NCBI RefSeq assembly: GCF_036322805.1
Contig: NZ_AP027272.1
Location: 2,976,001-3,040,000 of the forward strand
Direction: 5' to 3'
DNA: 64,000 nucleotides
DNA from: Planctobacterium marinum
GTDB taxonomy: Bacteria > Pseudomonadota > Gammaproteobacteria > Enterobacterales > Alteromonadaceae
Below, one piece after another: positions 30,672 to 37,268 of this stretch. A model generated the notes under the pieces. It made no database searches and was not told the origin of the DNA. It was given only the letters and a program-made list of their open reading frames with translations. The translations under genes and the position numbers were made by a program. The first letter of the stretch is position 1. Each line of letters opens with the position of its first letter.

Positions 30672-30722
30672 CTTTCCATTCAATTCAATAAATCGGCATT
30701 CGTTCTGCCATCCACAAATGCG

Positions 30723-30833
30723 GAACAACATTCAGCCTTGTGCGAAACATTAAACTTCAGTGTTCTGATGTGTTTTCTTCTTAGGGGCTCTCCCCTAAAA
30801 CCCCCTTCAGCCCATGCCGCGAGAAAGCATAAG
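30723..30833 (-). repeat. Repeat R1a (first 111-base copy)
   Basis: It is matched by R1b 183 bases further on, with about 7 differences in 111 bases. It contains the hairpin TTAGGGG-CTCT-CCCCTAA (30781-30798) and ends with CGCGAGAAAGCATAAG, which is one side of the stem of the structured element at 30993-31141. It is equivalent, in opposite orientation, to the repeats at 36979-37268. A reading frame runs through both copies on the plus strand but is best explained by the repeat. Confidence 0.85.
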
Positions 30834-30905
30834 TCGAATGGGTCGAATTTTAGCGCCGACGTCCGACTAGCCGTTGAAATGTTCGCGACATATACGGCAT
30901 TCACC

Positions 30906-31016
30906 GAACAACACTCAGTCTTGTGCGAAACATTAAACTTCAGTGTTTTGATGTGCTTTCTTCTTAGGGGCGCTCCCCTAAAACCCCCTTCTGCCCATGG
31001 CGCGAGAAAGCATAAG
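30906..31016 (-). repeat. Repeat R1b (second 111-base copy)
   Basis: Second copy of R1a. Its end overlaps the outer stem of the structured element. The hairpin TTAGGGG-CGCT-CCCCTAA is at 30964-30981. The stem differs from the 37 kb copies by paired changes (TTAGGGG/CCCCTAA here, GAAGGGG/CCCCTTC there). Confidence 0.85.
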
Positions 31017-31141
31017 CCTCAATCGCAGAACCTGAAGACCGTCAATGATGGCGCGTCCCTGCGCCAGCATTGACTTGGGCAACGTCCCTGTTGCCAATCT
31101 CCAGGTTTGATCTGCTCTTTCAGCTTATCTCGCGAATGGGC
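30993..31141 (-). ncRNA. Candidate structured RNA element, copy 1
   Basis: On the minus strand this stretch folds into a multi-branched structure. The outer stem is GCCCAT/ATGGGC plus CGCGAGA/TCTCGCG. An inner stem is AACCTGGAGA/TCTTCAGGTT. Two hairpins follow: GGCAAC-AGGGAC-GTTGCC, and GTCAATGCTGGCGC-AGGGAC with its complementary side. Copy 2 at 36852 is about 90% alike over a 130-base core, and its differences keep the stems paired. That argues for a selected fold (RNA, or single-stranded DNA). The two AGGGA loops resemble CsrA/RsmA-type GGA loops. Expression and function are unknown. Confidence 0.55.
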
Positions 31142-31362
31142 AAAAATACTCACGGACTTCGAACTAAATAAAGGGGAGCTTTCAGCGAGCCTGACCCCAC
31201 AGAAGCATTTCGTGCTAGCTCACTGACTGCTCACACACCAAAGCGGATCATCGGTATTGATGACAGGACTTACTGCATTTTAAATGTTTGGAAATGTTCA
31301 TTGCTAAATAGTTTAATAGAGTCCTATAGCAGCCACACAAGCTAAGGCAATCATTAAATAGG

Positions 31363-31403
31363 TAAAAACAACTCCAGTGTCCAGAGACGCGCTGGAGTTG
31401 TTT
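31363..31403 (-). terminator. Terminator of the FG-GAP-like protein gene
   Basis: Perfect 12-base arms (AAACAACTCCAG at 31366-31377, complement at 31392-31403) enclose a 14-base loop; the minus strand continues with two more T of a T5 run. It is nine bases beyond the stop codon. Confidence 0.85.
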
Positions 31404-31411
31404 AAAAAGAA

Positions 31412-34400
31412 TCAGAAATTTGCAGTATTTTCCACAGAAACTGAAAACCCGAACTCGCTACGAGTGATCACATCAACCATCGGTTTTTCATCTTCTGTCT
31501 TCGGGAACAGCTCTTGGCTACCACTTGCCCAGTTCATGCGTGTGGTAACAGGTGCGGCCAGTGGAATATCATCCGCATTTCGGCCAAACTGTATCCGCTG
31601 TATCTGATTGTCAGAACTATTTAAAATATACTGCAAATAGGTAGATGGACGTCTGACTGCCACATCAACTTTACCATCGCCGTCATAATCAGCAGGTATA
31701 GGGATATCACCGGGGTCTCTTCCGAAGGTAATACGCTGTATCTCACTATCGCTGGAGTTGCGGATATACCAAGTTTGATTGCCCGGCCTTCTGACCGCAA
31801 TGTCTGCTTTTCCATCGCCGTCATAATCCGCTGGCACCGGAATATCGGTGGATTGCAGGCCAAAATTAACTCGTGATATACCATCTGTATTGCCAGTAAG
31901 CGCATCTGCTCCAGAAGAATTCAGGATATACCACGTCTGGTTTGAGGGACGTCTGACGGCAACATCAGCCTTGCCATCACCATCATAATCGGCGGGAACA
32001 GGCACGTCTTCTTTACGCAGTCCGAAATTGATACGCTGAATTTCACCGTCTGAAGAATTTTTGATATACCACATTTGGTTTGAAGGCCGTCTGACGGCAA
32101 CATCAGTGATACCATCGCCATCATAATCAGCAGGCACCGGGATATCCTCTGACTGCAACCCAAAACTAATACGCTGTATTTCACCATCTGAAGAATTGAG
32201 CACATACCACATCTGATTTGACGGGCGTCTGACTGCGACATCAGCGATTCTGTCACCATCGAAGTCGCCCGAAACCGGAATATCCTGCTCATTCAAACCA
32301 AACCGGATACGATCGATTTCACCATCCGAAGAACGAGTAATATACTGAAGTGCGGTGGATGGGCGTCTGACAGCTATATCGGCGATACCGTCACCATCAA
32401 AATCATTCGCAACAAAATTTCCTTCGTTTTCACTGGACACTTCAAAAGTCAGGTTATCAATCCAGACACCATCTGCACCACTGCTCTCACTGCCGTTCTT
32501 TTGATACTCAAAAGTGACCACTTTACCGCCACTGGTAAGTGGGATGGTCTGAGTCTCCCAGTTGATAAAACCTGATAACTCTAGCACTGGCTCGTAATCC
32601 ACATAAACAATGAGTTTGTCGTTATTCTGCTCGGTATCAACATAGGTATCAAAACTTAGTTCACCTGCGTTTGACACATTCACGAAGAATTTGATCTGCT
32701 GAGTTGCATTATCACTAATCCTGGCGATTGCAAGACTTTGTTCACCGTCAGAGCTGCGTCTGGATGACAAAGACCAAAGTTGATTTTGCCAGGGGTATCC
32801 CAGTGATTCCACCTCAAAAGAACCATACTGTGCGATGAATTGGTTGATTTCAGGTAAATCCACCGAATCGGAGCGCAAGTAATCTAACTGGTCCGCAACC
32901 CCGTTTTCGTTGGCGTCAAAAAAAGCATCAATTGGACTTAATGGATCCAGCCCCAATGCGGTCTCGTAATTATCAGGCATAAAGTCGCCATCTGCATCGG
33001 TGTCTGCATTGTCTCCAATGCCATCAAAATCTATATCCATACTCTCGGTTGAATCACTCGGGAAAATATCGAACATGTCCTTGATGCCATCGTTGTCCGT
33101 GTCTGGCAGCTGATAACCGTCATCATAAGCAATGCGAATAAGTGGAGTTCCGTTATTGGTAATGTTCAACCCCTGTGATGGAAGTCCTTTGATGTCGGAA
33201 GTTTCATACAAAATATGCTTCCCATTTTTAGCAAATATCACTTCATTCAACGTGTTTGCAGGAAGATAGACGCCGTGCTCATTTTGTAACATCAAATGCC
33301 ATTCGTCGGCTTCGCTGTCTTTTTCAGCATCCCGGCGATAGACACTGGCCGGGTTACCACCTAGCGTCAGCCTGTGCTCTACATCGGTGGCCGTGTATAT
33401 CTCATCAAGACTTTCTGTTGTTTGAAAATAGCGAATGTTATCGCGAACACCCGATATAAAAAATTCTGGTAGCAACTCGTCACAACATTCTTCCCCTTCA
33501 GGTAGCGGTCGAATCAGTTGTGCCAGAGAAGTAGTAAAATTGACCAGGTCCCGACGATAAGCTGGGCTTGACTGCTCAGTGCCCGGACTGTAAACCAGCC
33601 CTTGTCCACCATAATAGCGACGTTGCCCGGCAAAGATCACCTCATTACCATCCCGACTAATTGCAAGGAGATTTTCATTAGTGCCTGATACAATGCCTCC
33701 GTTGATAGCAATATTGACTAAATCGACTTTGCCCGTCACCCGATCTTTGCGGTAGATATTCTGGATACCCGCTGCTTCAGGCGTCAGCTGTTTCTCAGTA
33801 TTTATGGCGATGTAACGCCCATCAGCACTGTACAAACCAGTACCACGTGTATCCGAGGCGCTGGAGAGGCCGTAACTGTTTGTATCGTCTTGGGTTATCT
33901 CCCCAGTGATGGTGTCATAAGTGTATAGGTGGATACCACTTTCCTGTGATACTGGCTGGTTATCTACAATGAGTAGATTGACTCTGGTTCTGAAGTTGAT
34001 AAATCTGCCATTATCGCTGATGTCAACCTGCCTTATTCTCGCCCATGTGGGCAACGATTCGGGATCATCTATCGCGTCAGGAATTTGTTCGAGAAATCTG
34101 TCGTTATACAATGCCAGAATATCTACGGTTTCTTGTGTCTCTATGTCGTACAAATAAATACTGCCCAGATGCTCATTGGTATTATCCACCTCTCGTAAAA
34201 CATAAACGGCATATTTTCCATTGCCCGACAAATGAGCGTCTCTGACAAAACTGCCATTGGGCGCCTCTACAATAAGGTGTGAAAAGCCCTCTTCCATATT
34301 TCGATAGTAAAGCATGTTGAGGTCTTGTGCGTATATCACATGCTGTCCGTCAGCGGATATATCAAAGTGTTCGAAATTACCATTTATCACCTCGCCATCA

Positions 34401-35098
34401 GGTGTCAAACTTACAATATCAACCTGATTATTGGTGGATACTCGAGTTCCGGCACTAACAGGGGAGCGCCATCCTATCGCCTCAACGGTATAGGTTTTTC
34501 CCCGGTCTCCTTCCAAAAATAAATTCAGTGACTGACTTTGTTGCGATTGTATATCGTACTCCATTGTGATGGTTTGATTACCTTCTGCAAGATCATAACA
34601 GCAGCCACTACCATCAAGGCCAAACCCGGCACCACCTGTTGCTCTCATCACAATCATTATTTGAGAGAAGGAAATACCTTCAAATCTGAGGTTGACCTGG
34701 CTATTGCCTTCAGCGGTAAACAGGTAGGCAACCTCGTCAGGAAAAATGGCCGAGGGAACACTTTCCTGATTGTAGTTTTCTCCCTCTATTGTCAGGTAAT
34801 TCAGTAGTGCCTCACCTGTGACCATATTTTGATGATACTCTGGCTTGCTTCTGGGATCATCGGGCAGGCTGTCACCTATGAACTCTTCGATATTCACAAA
34901 TCCGTCGTTGTCCATATCCAGCTCAGAGTCGTCAATGCCCACAACCAGGCCATAGGTTTCTTCCCATGTGTCGTCCATGCCGTCATTGTCAACATCTATG
35001 GTCTGTGCCGATGTACTGGCCATGCAATACAACAATGCCATCACAATCAACAGATTGAAAAGAGACGGGGATAATATGTTAATACGCTGGGATTTCAT
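31412..35098 (-). CDS. Large exported Ca-binding/FG-GAP-repeat protein
   Basis: 1228 residues with a signal peptide ending around STSAQT. Near the N-terminus is a thrombospondin-3-like Ca motif (DVDNDGMDDTWEE). Residues about 230-690 form a propeller-like region with Tolb/WD-type wording (DGQHVIYAQD, NGRFINFRTR). A second Ca cluster follows (DTDNDGIKDMFDIFPSD, DFDGIGDNADTDADGD). About 760-890 is a jelly-roll, probably carbohydrate- or adhesion-type. Then come six repeats of about 46 residues around ADYDGDGKADVAVRRPSNQ, the VCBS/FG-GAP calcium-binding style; the fourth has an insertion. No enzyme motif or surface anchor is visible. An extracellular adhesion or binding role is inferred. Confidence 0.82.
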   Translation of the reverse strand: MKSQRINILSPSLFNLLIVMALLYCMASTSAQTIDVDNDGMDDTWEETYGLVVGIDDSELDMDNDGFVNIEEFIGDSLPDDPRSKPEYHQNMVTGEALLNYLTIEGENYNQESVPSAIFPDEVAYLFTAEGNSQVNLRFEGISFSQIMIVMRATGGAGFGLDGSGCCYDLAEGNQTITMEYDIQSQQSQSLNLFLEGDRGKTYTVEAIGWRSPVSAGTRVSTNNQVDIVSLTPDGEVINGNFEHFDISADGQHVIYAQDLNMLYYRNMEEGFSHLIVEAPNGSFVRDAHLSGNGKYAVYVLREVDNTNEHLGSIYLYDIETQETVDILALYNDRFLEQIPDAIDDPESLPTWARIRQVDISDNGRFINFRTRVNLLIVDNQPVSQESGIHLYTYDTITGEITQDDTNSYGLSSASDTRGTGLYSADGRYIAINTEKQLTPEAAGIQNIYRKDRVTGKVDLVNIAINGGIVSGTNENLLAISRDGNEVIFAGQRRYYGGQGLVYSPGTEQSSPAYRRDLVNFTTSLAQLIRPLPEGEECCDELLPEFFISGVRDNIRYFQTTESLDEIYTATDVEHRLTLGGNPASVYRRDAEKDSEADEWHLMLQNEHGVYLPANTLNEVIFAKNGKHILYETSDIKGLPSQGLNITNNGTPLIRIAYDDGYQLPDTDNDGIKDMFDIFPSDSTESMDIDFDGIGDNADTDADGDFMPDNYETALGLDPLSPIDAFFDANENGVADQLDYLRSDSVDLPEINQFIAQYGSFEVESLGYPWQNQLWSLSSRRSSDGEQSLAIARISDNATQQIKFFVNVSNAGELSFDTYVDTEQNNDKLIVYVDYEPVLELSGFINWETQTIPLTSGGKVVTFEYQKNGSESSGADGVWIDNLTFEVSSENEGNFVANDFDGDGIADIAVRRPSTALQYITRSSDGEIDRIRFGLNEQDIPVSGDFDGDRIADVAVRRPSNQMWYVLNSSDGEIQRISFGLQSEDIPVPADYDGDGITDVAVRRPSNQMWYIKNSSDGEIQRINFGLRKEDVPVPADYDGDGKADVAVRRPSNQTWYILNSSGADALTGNTDGISRVNFGLQSTDIPVPADYDGDGKADIAVRRPGNQTWYIRNSSDSEIQRITFGRDPGDIPIPADYDGDGKVDVAVRRPSTYLQYILNSSDNQIQRIQFGRNADDIPLAAPVTTRMNWASGSQELFPKTEDEKPMVDVITRSEFGFSVSVENTANF

Positions 35099-35459
35099 TT
35101 TAAAACCTTGAACAACCTTAAAATACCGATTTATACCAGCCTCGCACTGTGCGAGTCATGGCATAACCACGGGGCAAAATAAAAGCGGTGAAATTTTGAG
35201 CTGCGGGATGTTACAGATTTGCTTTTAATTTGTCCAGATTTTAGATGCAAAGTGCCGACAAGGGAGAAGGGAAGATGTGCCGACAAGGGAGAAGGGAAGA
35301 TTTTAACATCAAAGCTTGTACGTCCGTAATTGGCACAAATTGGCCCTTAACATTCGCCAATCAAACGTGCGCAAACGGTCAATCATGTCGACCACTTCGC
35401 TCAAATTTCAAGAGGTTTTAAGATGGTTATAACCAAGTCCGGAAGGGTAAAAATAGTGG
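35099..35459. other. 361-base region upstream of the FG-GAP-like gene
   Basis: It should hold the promoter of the minus-strand 1228-residue gene. The only clear structure is the perfect 25-base tandem duplication at 35252-35301. No gene was seen. Confidence 0.5.
35252..35301. repeat. Perfect tandem repeat, 2 x 25 bases
   Basis: The unit begins GTGCCGACAAGGGAGAAGGG; the two copies (35252-35276 and 35277-35301) are identical. It is purine-rich and lies about 155-200 bases upstream of the FG-GAP-like gene. It may be a variable-number repeat. Confidence 0.9.
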
Positions 35460-35825
35460 CTACAGATATTTGATATTCAACTCTTCAGCGAGTTTTGAAA
35501 GTCGTTTGTCTAAGGTCCATAATTTTGTGCTGTTTGACAATAATGCAGATGCAAGTAAAGCGATATCAATATATCCACAACCTTTGCCGTAAAGTGCCCG
35601 TTCTTCGATAAAGGCCAGGACTTCTCGCATGGTGGCAATAGTGACTGTTCTTAAAAGAGATAAATCTTTCAACGTCTTACTTCGTGGTTCTGGTGGAGTT
35701 CCACAGGTGAGCTCAGCAATTCTCAGTGGATGGCAGCACACTTCGTCTGTGTTCAATAAATCGATTAAGGTGTCATTTGAACCTTTGAAATGAGCTACCC
35801 AAACTGAAGTGTCAACCAAAACCAC
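35460..35825 (-). CDS. vapC: VapC-like PIN-domain toxin
   Basis: 121 residues with a GTG start. The PIN-domain acidic residues are all in place: D5 in VLVDTSVW, E38 in IAELTCG, D87 in GYIDIALLAS and D106 in LWTLDKRL. Such toxins are Mg-dependent RNases that cut tRNA or rRNA. Three bases separate it from the antitoxin gene, so the pair is co-translated. Confidence 0.92.
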   Translation of the reverse strand: MVLVDTSVWVAHFKGSNDTLIDLLNTDEVCCHPLRIAELTCGTPPEPRSKTLKDLSLLRTVTIATMREVLAFIEERALYGKGCGYIDIALLASALLSNSTKLWTLDKRLSKLAEELNIKYL

Positions 35826-35828
35826 AAT

Positions 35829-36020
35829 TTAACCTTTTCGTCTTGGTATATCTTCAATCTCTGGATTTGCTCCTCCAAGGGTCGCCAGGCGTTTTGCCGC
35901 CTTCAATCTCACAAACGTTTGCATTGCTTCTCGAATAACGCTTGCCTTGTCACTACCTGGAGGGCAAAACTGTGCGGCTTGTTCAAAGAGTTCATCTTCT
36001 ATAGTAATTATGGTTCTCAT
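35829..36020 (-). CDS. vapB: VapB-like antitoxin
   Basis: 63 residues from the ATG at 36020, chosen because GGAGAGG lies just before it; a longer frame to 36074 adds an unlikely Cys/His-rich leader. The N-terminus MRTIITIEDELFEQA is a ribbon-helix-helix DNA-binding unit and the C-terminal third would wrap the toxin. It should neutralise VapC and repress the pair. Confidence 0.88.
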   Translation of the reverse strand: MRTIITIEDELFEQAAQFCPPGSDKASVIREAMQTFVRLKAAKRLATLGGANPEIEDIPRRKG

Positions 36021-36166
36021 GCACACCTCTCCATGCATCGTATCTGATGCTTTTTTACATCCTGAATGACACAATCAATATAATCAATTTATTTTAACTA
36101 AAGGGTCAGATTCTCCTGAAAATTATCGCTTCAATATTTACCCTCGTTGATCGTTGACCAAACCAT

Positions 36167-36463
36167 TCAGTTTGAAAAATGCATGGCGTATTTTATTTGT
36201 TGGTGGAGTACCCTGACAACCAAAATGTTGTCGTTGATTTTTTTGTAGAAGACCATGTGCTTTTGCACCGGAAACTGAAAATAATTTGCTCTGATGTCCT
36301 CTGCAGAGGTGCCCAAATTTGGCGATTCGGCTAGCATAGACAGGGCTTCGTGAAGGGCGACAAGATAAGCCTCAGCTTGGATGTCACTGTGAGTATTGGC
36401 GCTGTATTCGTAAATATCAGCGATATCTTCCTCTGCTTTGTTTGAGAGAATATAGCGATTCAT
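36167..36463 (-). CDS. parE: ParE/RelE-superfamily toxin
   Basis: 98 residues with the ParE fold pattern: YILSNKAEEDIADIYEYS at the start, ALSMLAESPNLGTSAEDIR in the middle, HMVFYKK and ILVVRVLHQ near the end. ParE toxins block DNA gyrase; a RelE-type RNase role cannot be excluded. It follows the antitoxin gene by eight bases. Confidence 0.9.
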   Translation of the reverse strand: MNRYILSNKAEEDIADIYEYSANTHSDIQAEAYLVALHEALSMLAESPNLGTSAEDIRANYFQFPVQKHMVFYKKINDNILVVRVLHQQIKYAMHFSN

Positions 36464-36471
36464 ATTGCGGC

Positions 36472-36696
36472 TTAACGCTCATTTCTTTTTTCTTTAAGAA
36501 TATCCAAAACATTCTTTGAGCTTTTACCGCTAAGCTCCCCTTCAATCAAAGCAAGATTGATGGCTTCTCGCTCACTCTGATTGCGACGAACCAGATCGCG
36601 GATATAGTCACTGGCATTGGCAAACTTTCCAGACTTAACTTGCTCATCAATCCACTTACGCATTTCCTCTGGCAGCGATACATTCAACGAGGCCAT
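36472..36696 (-). CDS. parD: ParD antitoxin
   Basis: 74 residues: MASLNVSLPEEMRKWIDEQVKSGK split by the ribbon and first helix, then NASDYIRDLVRRNQ, a typical CopG/ParD ribbon-helix-helix, with an acidic tail that binds the toxin. It is first in the pair, with a matching dyad upstream. Confidence 0.92.
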   Translation of the reverse strand: MASLNVSLPEEMRKWIDEQVKSGKFANASDYIRDLVRRNQSEREAINLALIEGELSGKSSKNVLDILKEKRNER

Positions 36697-36737
36697 TTGT
36701 AACTCCCAACAACGAGTATTTGTTAAACATGATGGCA

Positions 36738-36762
36738 GATAATGGCAAAGATTGCCATTATC
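36738..36762 (-). promoter_or_regulatory. Likely ParD operator (perfect inverted repeat)
   Basis: GATAATGGCA (36738-36747) and TGCCATTATC (36753-36762) with a 5-base spacer, 42 bases before the parD start. Ribbon-helix-helix antitoxins bind such dyads to repress their own operon. Binding is inferred. Confidence 0.65.
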
Positions 36763-36851
36763 TAGATTTAGAATTTTATTAGTTATATCCGCCTAAAATA
36801 ATCAATTCAATTAAATCCTCCCCCATCGTTAGTTCGAAGTCCCGGTATTTC

Positions 36852-37005
36852 TTGGCCCTTTCGCGAGATAAGCGGAAAGAGCAGATCAAACCTGAAGATT
36901 GGCAGCAGGGACGCTGCCCAAGTCAATGCTGGCACAGGGAAGTGCCATCATTGACGGTCTTCTGGTTCTGCGATGGACGCTTATGTTGTCTCGCGTCCGG
37001 GCCAA
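36852..37005 (+). ncRNA. Candidate structured RNA element, copy 2
   Basis: Plus-strand counterpart of 30993-31141. Stems: TTGGCCC/GGGCCAA, CGCGAGA/TCTCGCG, ATAAGC/GCTTAT, AACCTGAAGA/TCTTCTGGTT, GGCAGC-AGGGAC-GCTGCC, and GTCAATG...GGCAC-AGGGAA-GTGCC...CATTGAC. Relative to copy 1 the changed pairs are G:C for A:T and A:T for G:C in the two hairpins, and the outermost stem is different in sequence yet still paired. Both copies read outward from the segment that contains the FG-GAP-like protein and the toxin-antitoxin genes. Confidence 0.55.
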
Positions 37006-37099
37006 AAGAGGGTTGAAGGGGATCTCCCCTTCGAAGAAGTAACATCGAAGGACCAAATTTAAAGTTTCGTGTTTCGCTTCAAATCGACATCAATTGATA
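36979..37099 (+). repeat. Repeat R2a (121 bases)
   Basis: Starts at GCTTATGTTGTCTCGCG inside the structured element and ends at CAATTGATA. It holds the hairpin GAAGGGG-ATCT-CCCCTTC (37015-37032). It is homologous to R1a/R1b in inverted orientation and to R2b 170 bases later. Confidence 0.82.
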
Positions 37100-37148
37100 C
37101 ATGTGTCACCTGGTCAGTGATCAACGGCTTTCAGTTTCAGCGATTAAA

Positions 37149-37268
37149 GCCTATGTTGTCTCGCGTCCGGACCAAAAGGGGGTTGAAGGGGATTCCCCTT
37201 CGAAGAAGTCACATCGAAGAACCAAATTTAAATTGTCGTGTGCAGCTTCAAGTCAACATCAATTGATA
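37149..37268 (+). repeat. Repeat R2b (120 bases)
   Basis: Second copy of R2a, more than 80% alike, with the hairpin GAAGGGG-ATT-CCCCTTC at 37185-37201. As on the left side, this copy lacks the full multi-branched core and keeps only one flank of its outer stem. Confidence 0.82.

Follow-up and report, generated by a model that had tools for sequence, protein, structure and literature searches.

TwoAYGGAY elements as candidate outward-facing boundaries of exchangeable accessory genes in Planctobacterium marinum and other Gammaproteobacteria

Introduction

Structured, lineage-specific sites flanking exchangeable genes are found in integrons, where an integrase gene is followed by attC sites that all point the same way. 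The subject of this paper is a pair of structured repeats of a different kind, found in inverted orientation around a group of toxin–antitoxin and other accessory genes in a stretch of 64,000 nucleotides (nt) of the Planctobacterium marinum genome (contig NZ_AP027272.1, positions 2,976,001 to 3,040,000), referred to below as the window. Both repeats match the Rfam family TwoAYGGAY (RF01731), and the copies in the window are probably members of this family acting as outward boundary elements of an exchangeable accessory-gene cassette, whose outgoing transcripts would carry binding sites for the regulator CsrA. This reading is directly supported by a covarying fold, nearly fixed A.GGA loops, dispersal of the repeat, outward pairing and different cargo at the same locus in related species; that homology ends at the inner ends of the elements was observed in a single aligned case, between nrdD and nrdG.

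The TwoAYGGAY family and its proposed link to CsrA are already known. The motif has been tabulated for the human gut, the gamma-Proteobacteria and the Clostridiales (PMC2864571), and binding of CsrA was proposed in a motif study, with validation pending (PMC4333381); the papers cited here are represented by extracts of their text. Ligands of CsrA selected by systematic evolution of ligands by exponential enrichment (SELEX) have the consensus RUACARGGAUGU, mostly displayed on a hairpin with a six-base loop in which AC pairs with GU, on stems mostly of four pairs or fewer; the site of the related RsmE is an ANGGAN hexaloop, and CsrA bridges sites 10 to 63 nt apart (PMC7652899). What seems to be new is the genomic context of RF01731, that is, its dispersal, outward pairs and swappable cargo. 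No report of these was found in the open-licence literature, and the extracts of PMC2864571 and PMC4333381 are silent on them.

The repeats and their fold

The original prediction, made from the letters of the window, was of two inverted structured copies of an undescribed element, at 30993-31141 and 36852-37005. The pair was borne out: the copies are 87% identical over about 165 nt by BLAST, and an inverted-repeat finder gives arms of 246 nt at 81% identity (30933-31178 and 36818-37063), so the repeat is longer than those boundaries. Copy 1 folds as RNA at -79.3 kcal/mol and copy 2 (36854-37002) at -73.8 kcal/mol, with 0 of 200 dinucleotide shuffles as good for either. The Rfam search that the prediction had called for led to RF01731 with both copies, and the element is therefore not undescribed. 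Copy 1 lies above the gathering cut-off of 43 bits, and copy 2, which matches with its two-hairpin core (36895-36961, model positions 45-113), lies just below it; Rfam has no other match in the window at E<=0.1. The parts of the repeats are as follows.

30993 to 31141, minus strand: copy 1, two-hairpin TwoAYGGAY core with long outer stem (fold z score -7.24; RF01731 44.0 bits at 31009-31135)
30861 to 31187, minus strand: copy 1, whole repeat element (nhmmer profile, 318 bits)
near 31164, minus strand: conserved inner 5' end of the copy 1 element, GTTCGAAGTCC (alignment of oriented copies)
3' part of the copy 1 element, minus strand: palindrome AGGGG..CCCCT (alignment of oriented copies)
31084 to 31089, minus strand: copy 1, first loop AGGGAC (fold)
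31055 to 31060, minus strand: copy 1, second loop AGGGAC, spaced 29 nt from the other loop (fold)
36852 to 37005, plus strand: copy 2, two-hairpin core with long outer stem (fold z score -6.51 for 36854-37002; RF01731 42.4 bits)
36808 to 37139, plus strand: copy 2, whole repeat element (nhmmer profile, 319 bits)
36907 to 36912, plus strand: copy 2, first loop AGGGAC (fold)
36936 to 36941, plus strand: copy 2, second loop AGGGAA (fold)
30691 to 30836, minus strand: partial copy, 3' end only, outside copy 1 (nhmmer 86.7 bits, model 171-323)
37124 to 37268, plus strand: partial copy, 3' end only, outside copy 2 (nhmmer 93.8 bits, model 148-293)

The two partial 3'-end copies just outside the pair had been missed in the original prediction, as had the genes that the pair encloses and the nature of the copies as dispersed repeats bounding accessory genes.

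The window copies resemble TwoAYGGAY RNA in the covariance-model match (full-length or core), the two adjacent hairpins with A.GGA loops and the long outer stem. They differ from the name of the motif in the second loop base, which is a purine in AGGGA(C/A) and not Y. The loops of the repeat are A(N)GGA(N): the two window copies have G as the second base, and some other copies have A, C or T there.

Is the fold under selection? The paired base changes that had been named as keeping the stems intact are recognisable in the folded copies, and covariation was assessed in an alignment of 20 copies from two species (the P. marinum genome and its congener G001) that had been chosen on their match to a profile, irrespective of their loops. 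These are 20 of 25 aligned copies, the others being L053:5537-5790, two L054 copies, L056:5727-5877 and L064 (L and G numbers are our handles for loci and genomes). The consensus structure from RNAalifold has 46 pairs, 21 of them with compensatory changes. Of 917 cells 95.0% are paired, against 87.1% in shuffled alignments; cells with a double change number 77, against 23.7 +- 3.6 in shuffles (0 of 500) and 5-9 when the structure is slid along the alignment, and the covariation score is 0.270 against 0.125. By this shuffle and slide control, which is not R-scape and whose own caveat is that shuffles of this kind may be outscored by sequences that are merely related, covariation exceeds chance.

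The loops are equally constrained. In the same alignment the first loop reads A.GGA in 20 of 20 copies (one with an extra base) and the second in 19 of 20, the exception being GGGGA; the C-G closing pair is present in 19 of 20 for each, and the base after the loop A is free (G, A, C or T). The excluded copy L053:5537-5790 has lost its first hairpin. Loop conservation was taken from this alignment only, because a second one, of 57 cores (61 unique matches less 4 decoys), was picked by a pattern with A.GGA twice, which makes its loop invariance circular. Loop spacing across those cores, picked within 20-48 nt, is 24-31 nt.

The prediction had also taken the pattern as pointing to a functional RNA or a single-stranded DNA fold and not to debris, and the GGA loops as suggesting a sponge for a Csr/Rsm-type protein. 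The covariation argues for a selected fold; the choice between RNA and DNA is left undecided by folding. The opposite strand is also stable as RNA (z score -6.7 for each copy), and copy 1 as DNA gives z scores of -6.5 and -8.0 on its two strands. Since both strands fold well, folding alone cannot separate RNA from single-stranded DNA, and it is the letters of the loops that carry the case for RNA. These fit well: the window loops, C(AGGGAC)G and C(AGGGAA)G at a spacing of 29 nt, agree with the published CsrA hexaloop and with the 10-63 nt range, RF01731 shares the Rfam clan CL00106 with rsmX, and the P. marinum genome encodes csrA (one match, 89.6 bits). To judge from their letters, the elements are predicted CsrA/RsmA-binding RNAs, each with two putative sites spaced for one dimer. 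In their GGA hexaloop hairpins with this spacing, and in tandem arrays that multiply the sites, they are like the CsrB/RsmX-type small RNAs, from which they differ in having two sites per unit, very stable stems and dispersed copies that bound genes.

Distribution of the repeat

The element has homologues well beyond this locus, in its own genome, in G001 and in others. The P. marinum genome (4.87 Mb, one contig) yields 14 BLAST matches at E<=1, of which several are short, and 9 matches to RF01731 at E<=0.05, 5 of which are over the cut-off. A profile built from seven copies finds 8 near-full copies in the stretches fetched (two apiece in the window, L015 and L016 and a single one in each of L017 and L018), besides rearranged or partial ones. 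Relatives in this genome and in G001 reach up to 60.5 bits for RF01731, with some below the cut-off. At E<=0.001, the family was found in at least 55 of 197 genomes sampled from the order (at least 41 over the cut-off), in 20 of 24 Psychromonas genomes, with up to 38 matches per genome, and in at least 35 of 398 genomes sampled from the phylum, the order and phylum counts being lower bounds, with at most 13 and 6 candidates per genome scored, respectively; control genomes gave 0 of 14 in each case. Copies of P. marinum's own type, as found by BLAST, occur in 2 of 59 genomes, P. marinum and G001; G002, the genus's third genome, has none. One copy-rich family (f30), which from the look of the repeat we take to be Pseudomonas, carries GC-rich versions of the element. 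Miniature inverted-repeat transposable elements (MITEs) and intergenic repeats of Pseudomonas are likewise dispersed and non-coding, among them the R200 repeat of P. fluorescens, which at 320 bp is also of similar size (PMC2718517); R200 and the Pseudomonas-type elements may be one family, which we offer as a lead only. Spread by plasmid or phage was rejected: plasmids held no match to window copy 2 or to a Pseudomonas-like copy, phages none to copy 1, and viral contigs none to the exact own-type pattern.

Other repeats were met along the way. A second type in the P. marinum genome (L016:7638-7668, L019:6874-6904, L065:6507-6537) has AGGGAY and ATGGAC in hairpin-like A.GGA stretches, and lies downstream of a first-type element in L016 and L019. 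At L019:6450-6540 and L020:8061-8183 a hairpin tip is swapped for a sequence starting GTAGGTTCGA, palindromic in L019, which looks as if one repeat were nested inside another. Beside elements in G001, L026:2553-2635 matches the Rfam Pseudomonas small RNA P9 at 53.9 bits (cut-off 43).

Outward orientation

Orientation was counted over 357 distinct listed matches to RF01731 in 66 genomes (the order, Psychromonas and phylum samples, G000 excluded). Where two neighbours in this list lie within 12 kb of each other in opposite orientation, they are arranged '-+' in 27 cases, from 18 genomes, and '+-' in none; same-direction neighbours number 20 ('++') and 26 ('--'), and the rest are single at such distance. 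In a '-+' pair the 5' ends face the interior and the elements point outward. Further pairs of this kind are found in the P. marinum genome (the window, L015 and L016) and in G001 (L053, L060 and L056), and tandem same-direction copies may stand on one or both sides, as in L182, L169 and L180. Because both elements read outward, any outgoing transcript would carry sense RNA with two CsrA sites.

Different cargo at fixed loci

One case comes from Psychromonas, between nrdD and nrdG (both named by Pfam). Among 22 stretches, nrdG lies within about 300 nt of nrdD in 14. Genes between two elements or element blocks are found there in G167 (a Ppl-like gene), G107 (a DUF2971 gene) and G214, a single element in G228 and G230, and 4 kb without an element in G226; two stretches lacked nrdD. 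The left elements of G167 and G107 have almost identical cores, and their right elements are highly similar. On either side the alignment stops at the inner 5' terminus, and no blastn match between the cargos is better than E 0.35. Similar differences are seen at other sites, for which the gene names purU, serA, bamD, chrR and ribB are our assumption from reading translations. In the genus of the window, the interval between bamD and chrR has the same neighbouring genes in both genomes but contains a DUF3800 gene in G000 and four other open reading frames (ORFs) in G001. Between purU and serA, G000 has a pair with a 125-amino-acid ORF, and in G001 the gap is about 60 nt. G155 and G107 both have ribB as a neighbour, with cargo that differs between them. 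Two otherwise empty nrdD–nrdG sites (L148:7060-7350 and L151:6720-7090) contain a short sequence that is similar at its ends to the outer ends of the elements, in L148 TTCGTCTGTGCT and GCACTGACGAA.

The ends of a single interval are 0.52-0.83 identical in 10 Psychromonas intervals, and the window arms 81% over 246 nt, so that the near-identical terminal repeats of a transposon or MITE are not found. Since the ends are unmatched and no target duplication was seen, a simple symmetric transposon duplicated together with its cargo is unlikely and was rejected; nor was any match to a known transposon end seen, in a comparison made without a transposon database. The elements share with integron attC sites that they are structured, lineage-specific and flank exchangeable genes. 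They differ in forming outward pairs of opposite orientation, where attC sites keep a single one; the comparison involved no integrase search and no formal matching of core boxes.

Cargo of the intervals

Defence genes were sought with PADLOC in 21 intervals: 15 of the 27 listed '-+' pairs, L182, three from the P. marinum genome and two from G001. The ORFs taken were mostly of at least 80 amino acids and overlapped no element. At E<=1e-20, 16 of 53 ORFs tested match, and 12 of the 21 intervals hold at least one match. The batches gave 9/10, 4/10, 2/10, 1/9 counted and 0/14; the first was partly chosen after Pfam matches, so the total over 53 is the fairer figure. Flanking ORFs reach this level in at most 4 of 63, a ceiling inferred from the tally order, in which four one-member families stand at or below 1e-20; taking 4, cargo and flanks differ with a Fisher p of 7e-4. 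Among the matching cargo are KAP PDC-S49, GmrSD-type NsnA/PD-T4-2, DUF2971 PDC-S31 (three times), Ppl-like (twice), PDC-M01AB, DUF3800 PDC-M04A, FRG PDC-S15, PDC-M11AB with a SLATT protein, and a type I-B retron pair (reverse transcriptase and ATPase-Toprim, L107:8402-10758), the last within a 9-kb outward pair that also holds ordinary metabolic genes. A NIPSNAP gene lies inside a pair of the Pseudomonas-like type (L178).

In the window, the interval between 31187 and 36808 holds an FG-GAP protein and the toxin–antitoxin pairs VapBC and ParDE:

31412 to 35098, minus strand: 1228-amino-acid protein with FG-GAP repeats (Pfam FG-GAP_3 6.2e-25; no PADLOC match)
35460 to 35825, minus strand: PIN-domain (VapC-like) toxin (Pfam PIN 8.4e-11; no PADLOC match)
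35829 to 36074, minus strand: VapB-like antitoxin (Pfam VapB_antitoxin 1.1e-6; no PADLOC match)
36167 to 36463, minus strand: ParE toxin (Pfam ParE_toxin 6.9e-18; no PADLOC match)
36472 to 36696, minus strand: ParD antitoxin (Pfam ParD_antitoxin 2.9e-7; no PADLOC match)

The FG-GAP protein also matches a TcdB middle/N-terminal model (1.9e-8), probably only via its repeats, and a perfect 25-bp tandem duplication lies upstream of its gene (35252-35301).

Discussion

How would such an arrangement work? Cargo could be exchanged by recombination in or at the elements, either by homologous recombination between repeats or through a recombinase for which the folded strand is the recognition site. A transcript that runs out of the cassette in either direction would cover the element in sense and so end in RNA with two CsrA/RsmA sites. 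Foreign genes could in this way come under Csr control, and tandem arrays could titrate CsrA; such a regulatory role, which we read from loop letters and orientation, is plausible. More tentatively, the elements might mark a widespread class of gammaproteobacterial cassettes, in which defence and toxin–antitoxin genes sit between outward elements that are both boundaries of DNA exchange and paired CsrA/RsmA sites; this wider claim is possible, though we think it less likely than not.

Several observations weigh against the main reading. The cargo of the window has no PADLOC match, and 9 of the 21 intervals have none at E<=1e-20; at E<=1e-5, 62 PADLOC families match among flanking ORFs, in a tally that does not give the number of proteins. 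Of the 27 '-+' pairs, 12 fell outside the PADLOC scan, mostly short ones with no clear ORF, as did L056 and L149. Many copies are single, among them L017, L018, L019 and L020 in the P. marinum genome, for which no partner was found. Two '+-' arrangements with genes inside come to light when the profile count takes in weak, partial copies. In L166, two ORFs lie between partial '+' copies and a '-' copy; in L167, a patatin gene lies between a '+' copy and degenerate '-' copies, and was kept out of the PADLOC count because of its '+-' interval (its match is weak, 1.5e-7). The orientation and cargo counts include loci common to related species and are not independent. At nrdD–nrdG and purU–serA no clean target-site duplication was seen, with no near-identical empty site for comparison. 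Identity between the ends of one interval averages 0.675, little above the 0.625 of shuffled ends (214 of 5000 shuffles as high), which speaks against a symmetric transposon duplicated with its cargo. No recombinase is known to act on the ends, and none was searched for as such. The very stable, long stems are also unlike the short stems of the SELEX ligands.

The alternative that survives best is that the fold works as DNA only, being recognised as a single strand by a recombinase or an HUH/Y1-type transposase, with the GGA loops as protein contacts and no part for CsrA. Integron attC sites and the ends of IS200/IS605 offer parallels. Both strands of copy 1 do fold well as DNA, the copies are dispersed, tandem and outward-facing, and cargo differs up to the inner end of the element. 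We nevertheless think this account rather unlikely: the conserved loop letters are those of a CsrA/RsmE site, with the free position correctly placed, no associated enzyme is known, the ends of one interval are not near-identical, and no target duplication was seen.

An account purely in terms of RNA would make the elements multiplied Csr-type sponge genes or 3' untranslated-region elements through which nothing is exchanged, the enclosed genes being ones whose transcripts benefit from such 3' ends. It draws support from the fit of the loops to CsrA sites, from the sense orientation in which outgoing transcripts would cover the element on both sides of an interval, and from the nearest outer ORFs, which end towards the element in 29 of 40 cases (counted by eye; p 0.006). 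It is made unlikely by the unlike cargo found between the same two elements at nrdD–nrdG, with homology ending at their inner ends, by the different cargo at bamD–chrR and by the enrichment of cargo in defence genes.

The elements could also be neutral, as miniature repeats that survive in tail-to-tail intergenic regions where foreign genes survive too, the link to defence being a by-product of common genomic islands. Other repeat families of P. fluorescens show a tail-repeat-tail bias (PMC2718517), and the unmatched intervals and single copies noted above also speak for it; left unexplained are the 27:0 orientation among the matches listed and the constraint on structure and loops, and we regard neutrality as quite improbable. 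The idea that the element is a remnant of an IscB/IsrB-type guide RNA (HEARO), also raised in the original prediction, was rejected and has next to no likelihood: beyond a structured, repeated element nothing speaks for it, and the window has no HEARO match at the gathering score or at E<=0.1, where RF01731 does match.

If the two window copies are indeed boundary elements, a structured-RNA family without an established function gains a testable genomic role, that of marking the borders of exchangeable gene sets. Outward TwoAYGGAY pairs could then be used to find unfamiliar defence genes, since several of the intervals contain ORFs that match no family. Immunity genes would be tied in their spread to a global post-transcriptional regulator. 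On the wider, more tentative claim above, acquired immunity genes would arrive already connected to the Csr system of the host, or CsrA would be titrated by tandem arrays of the elements.

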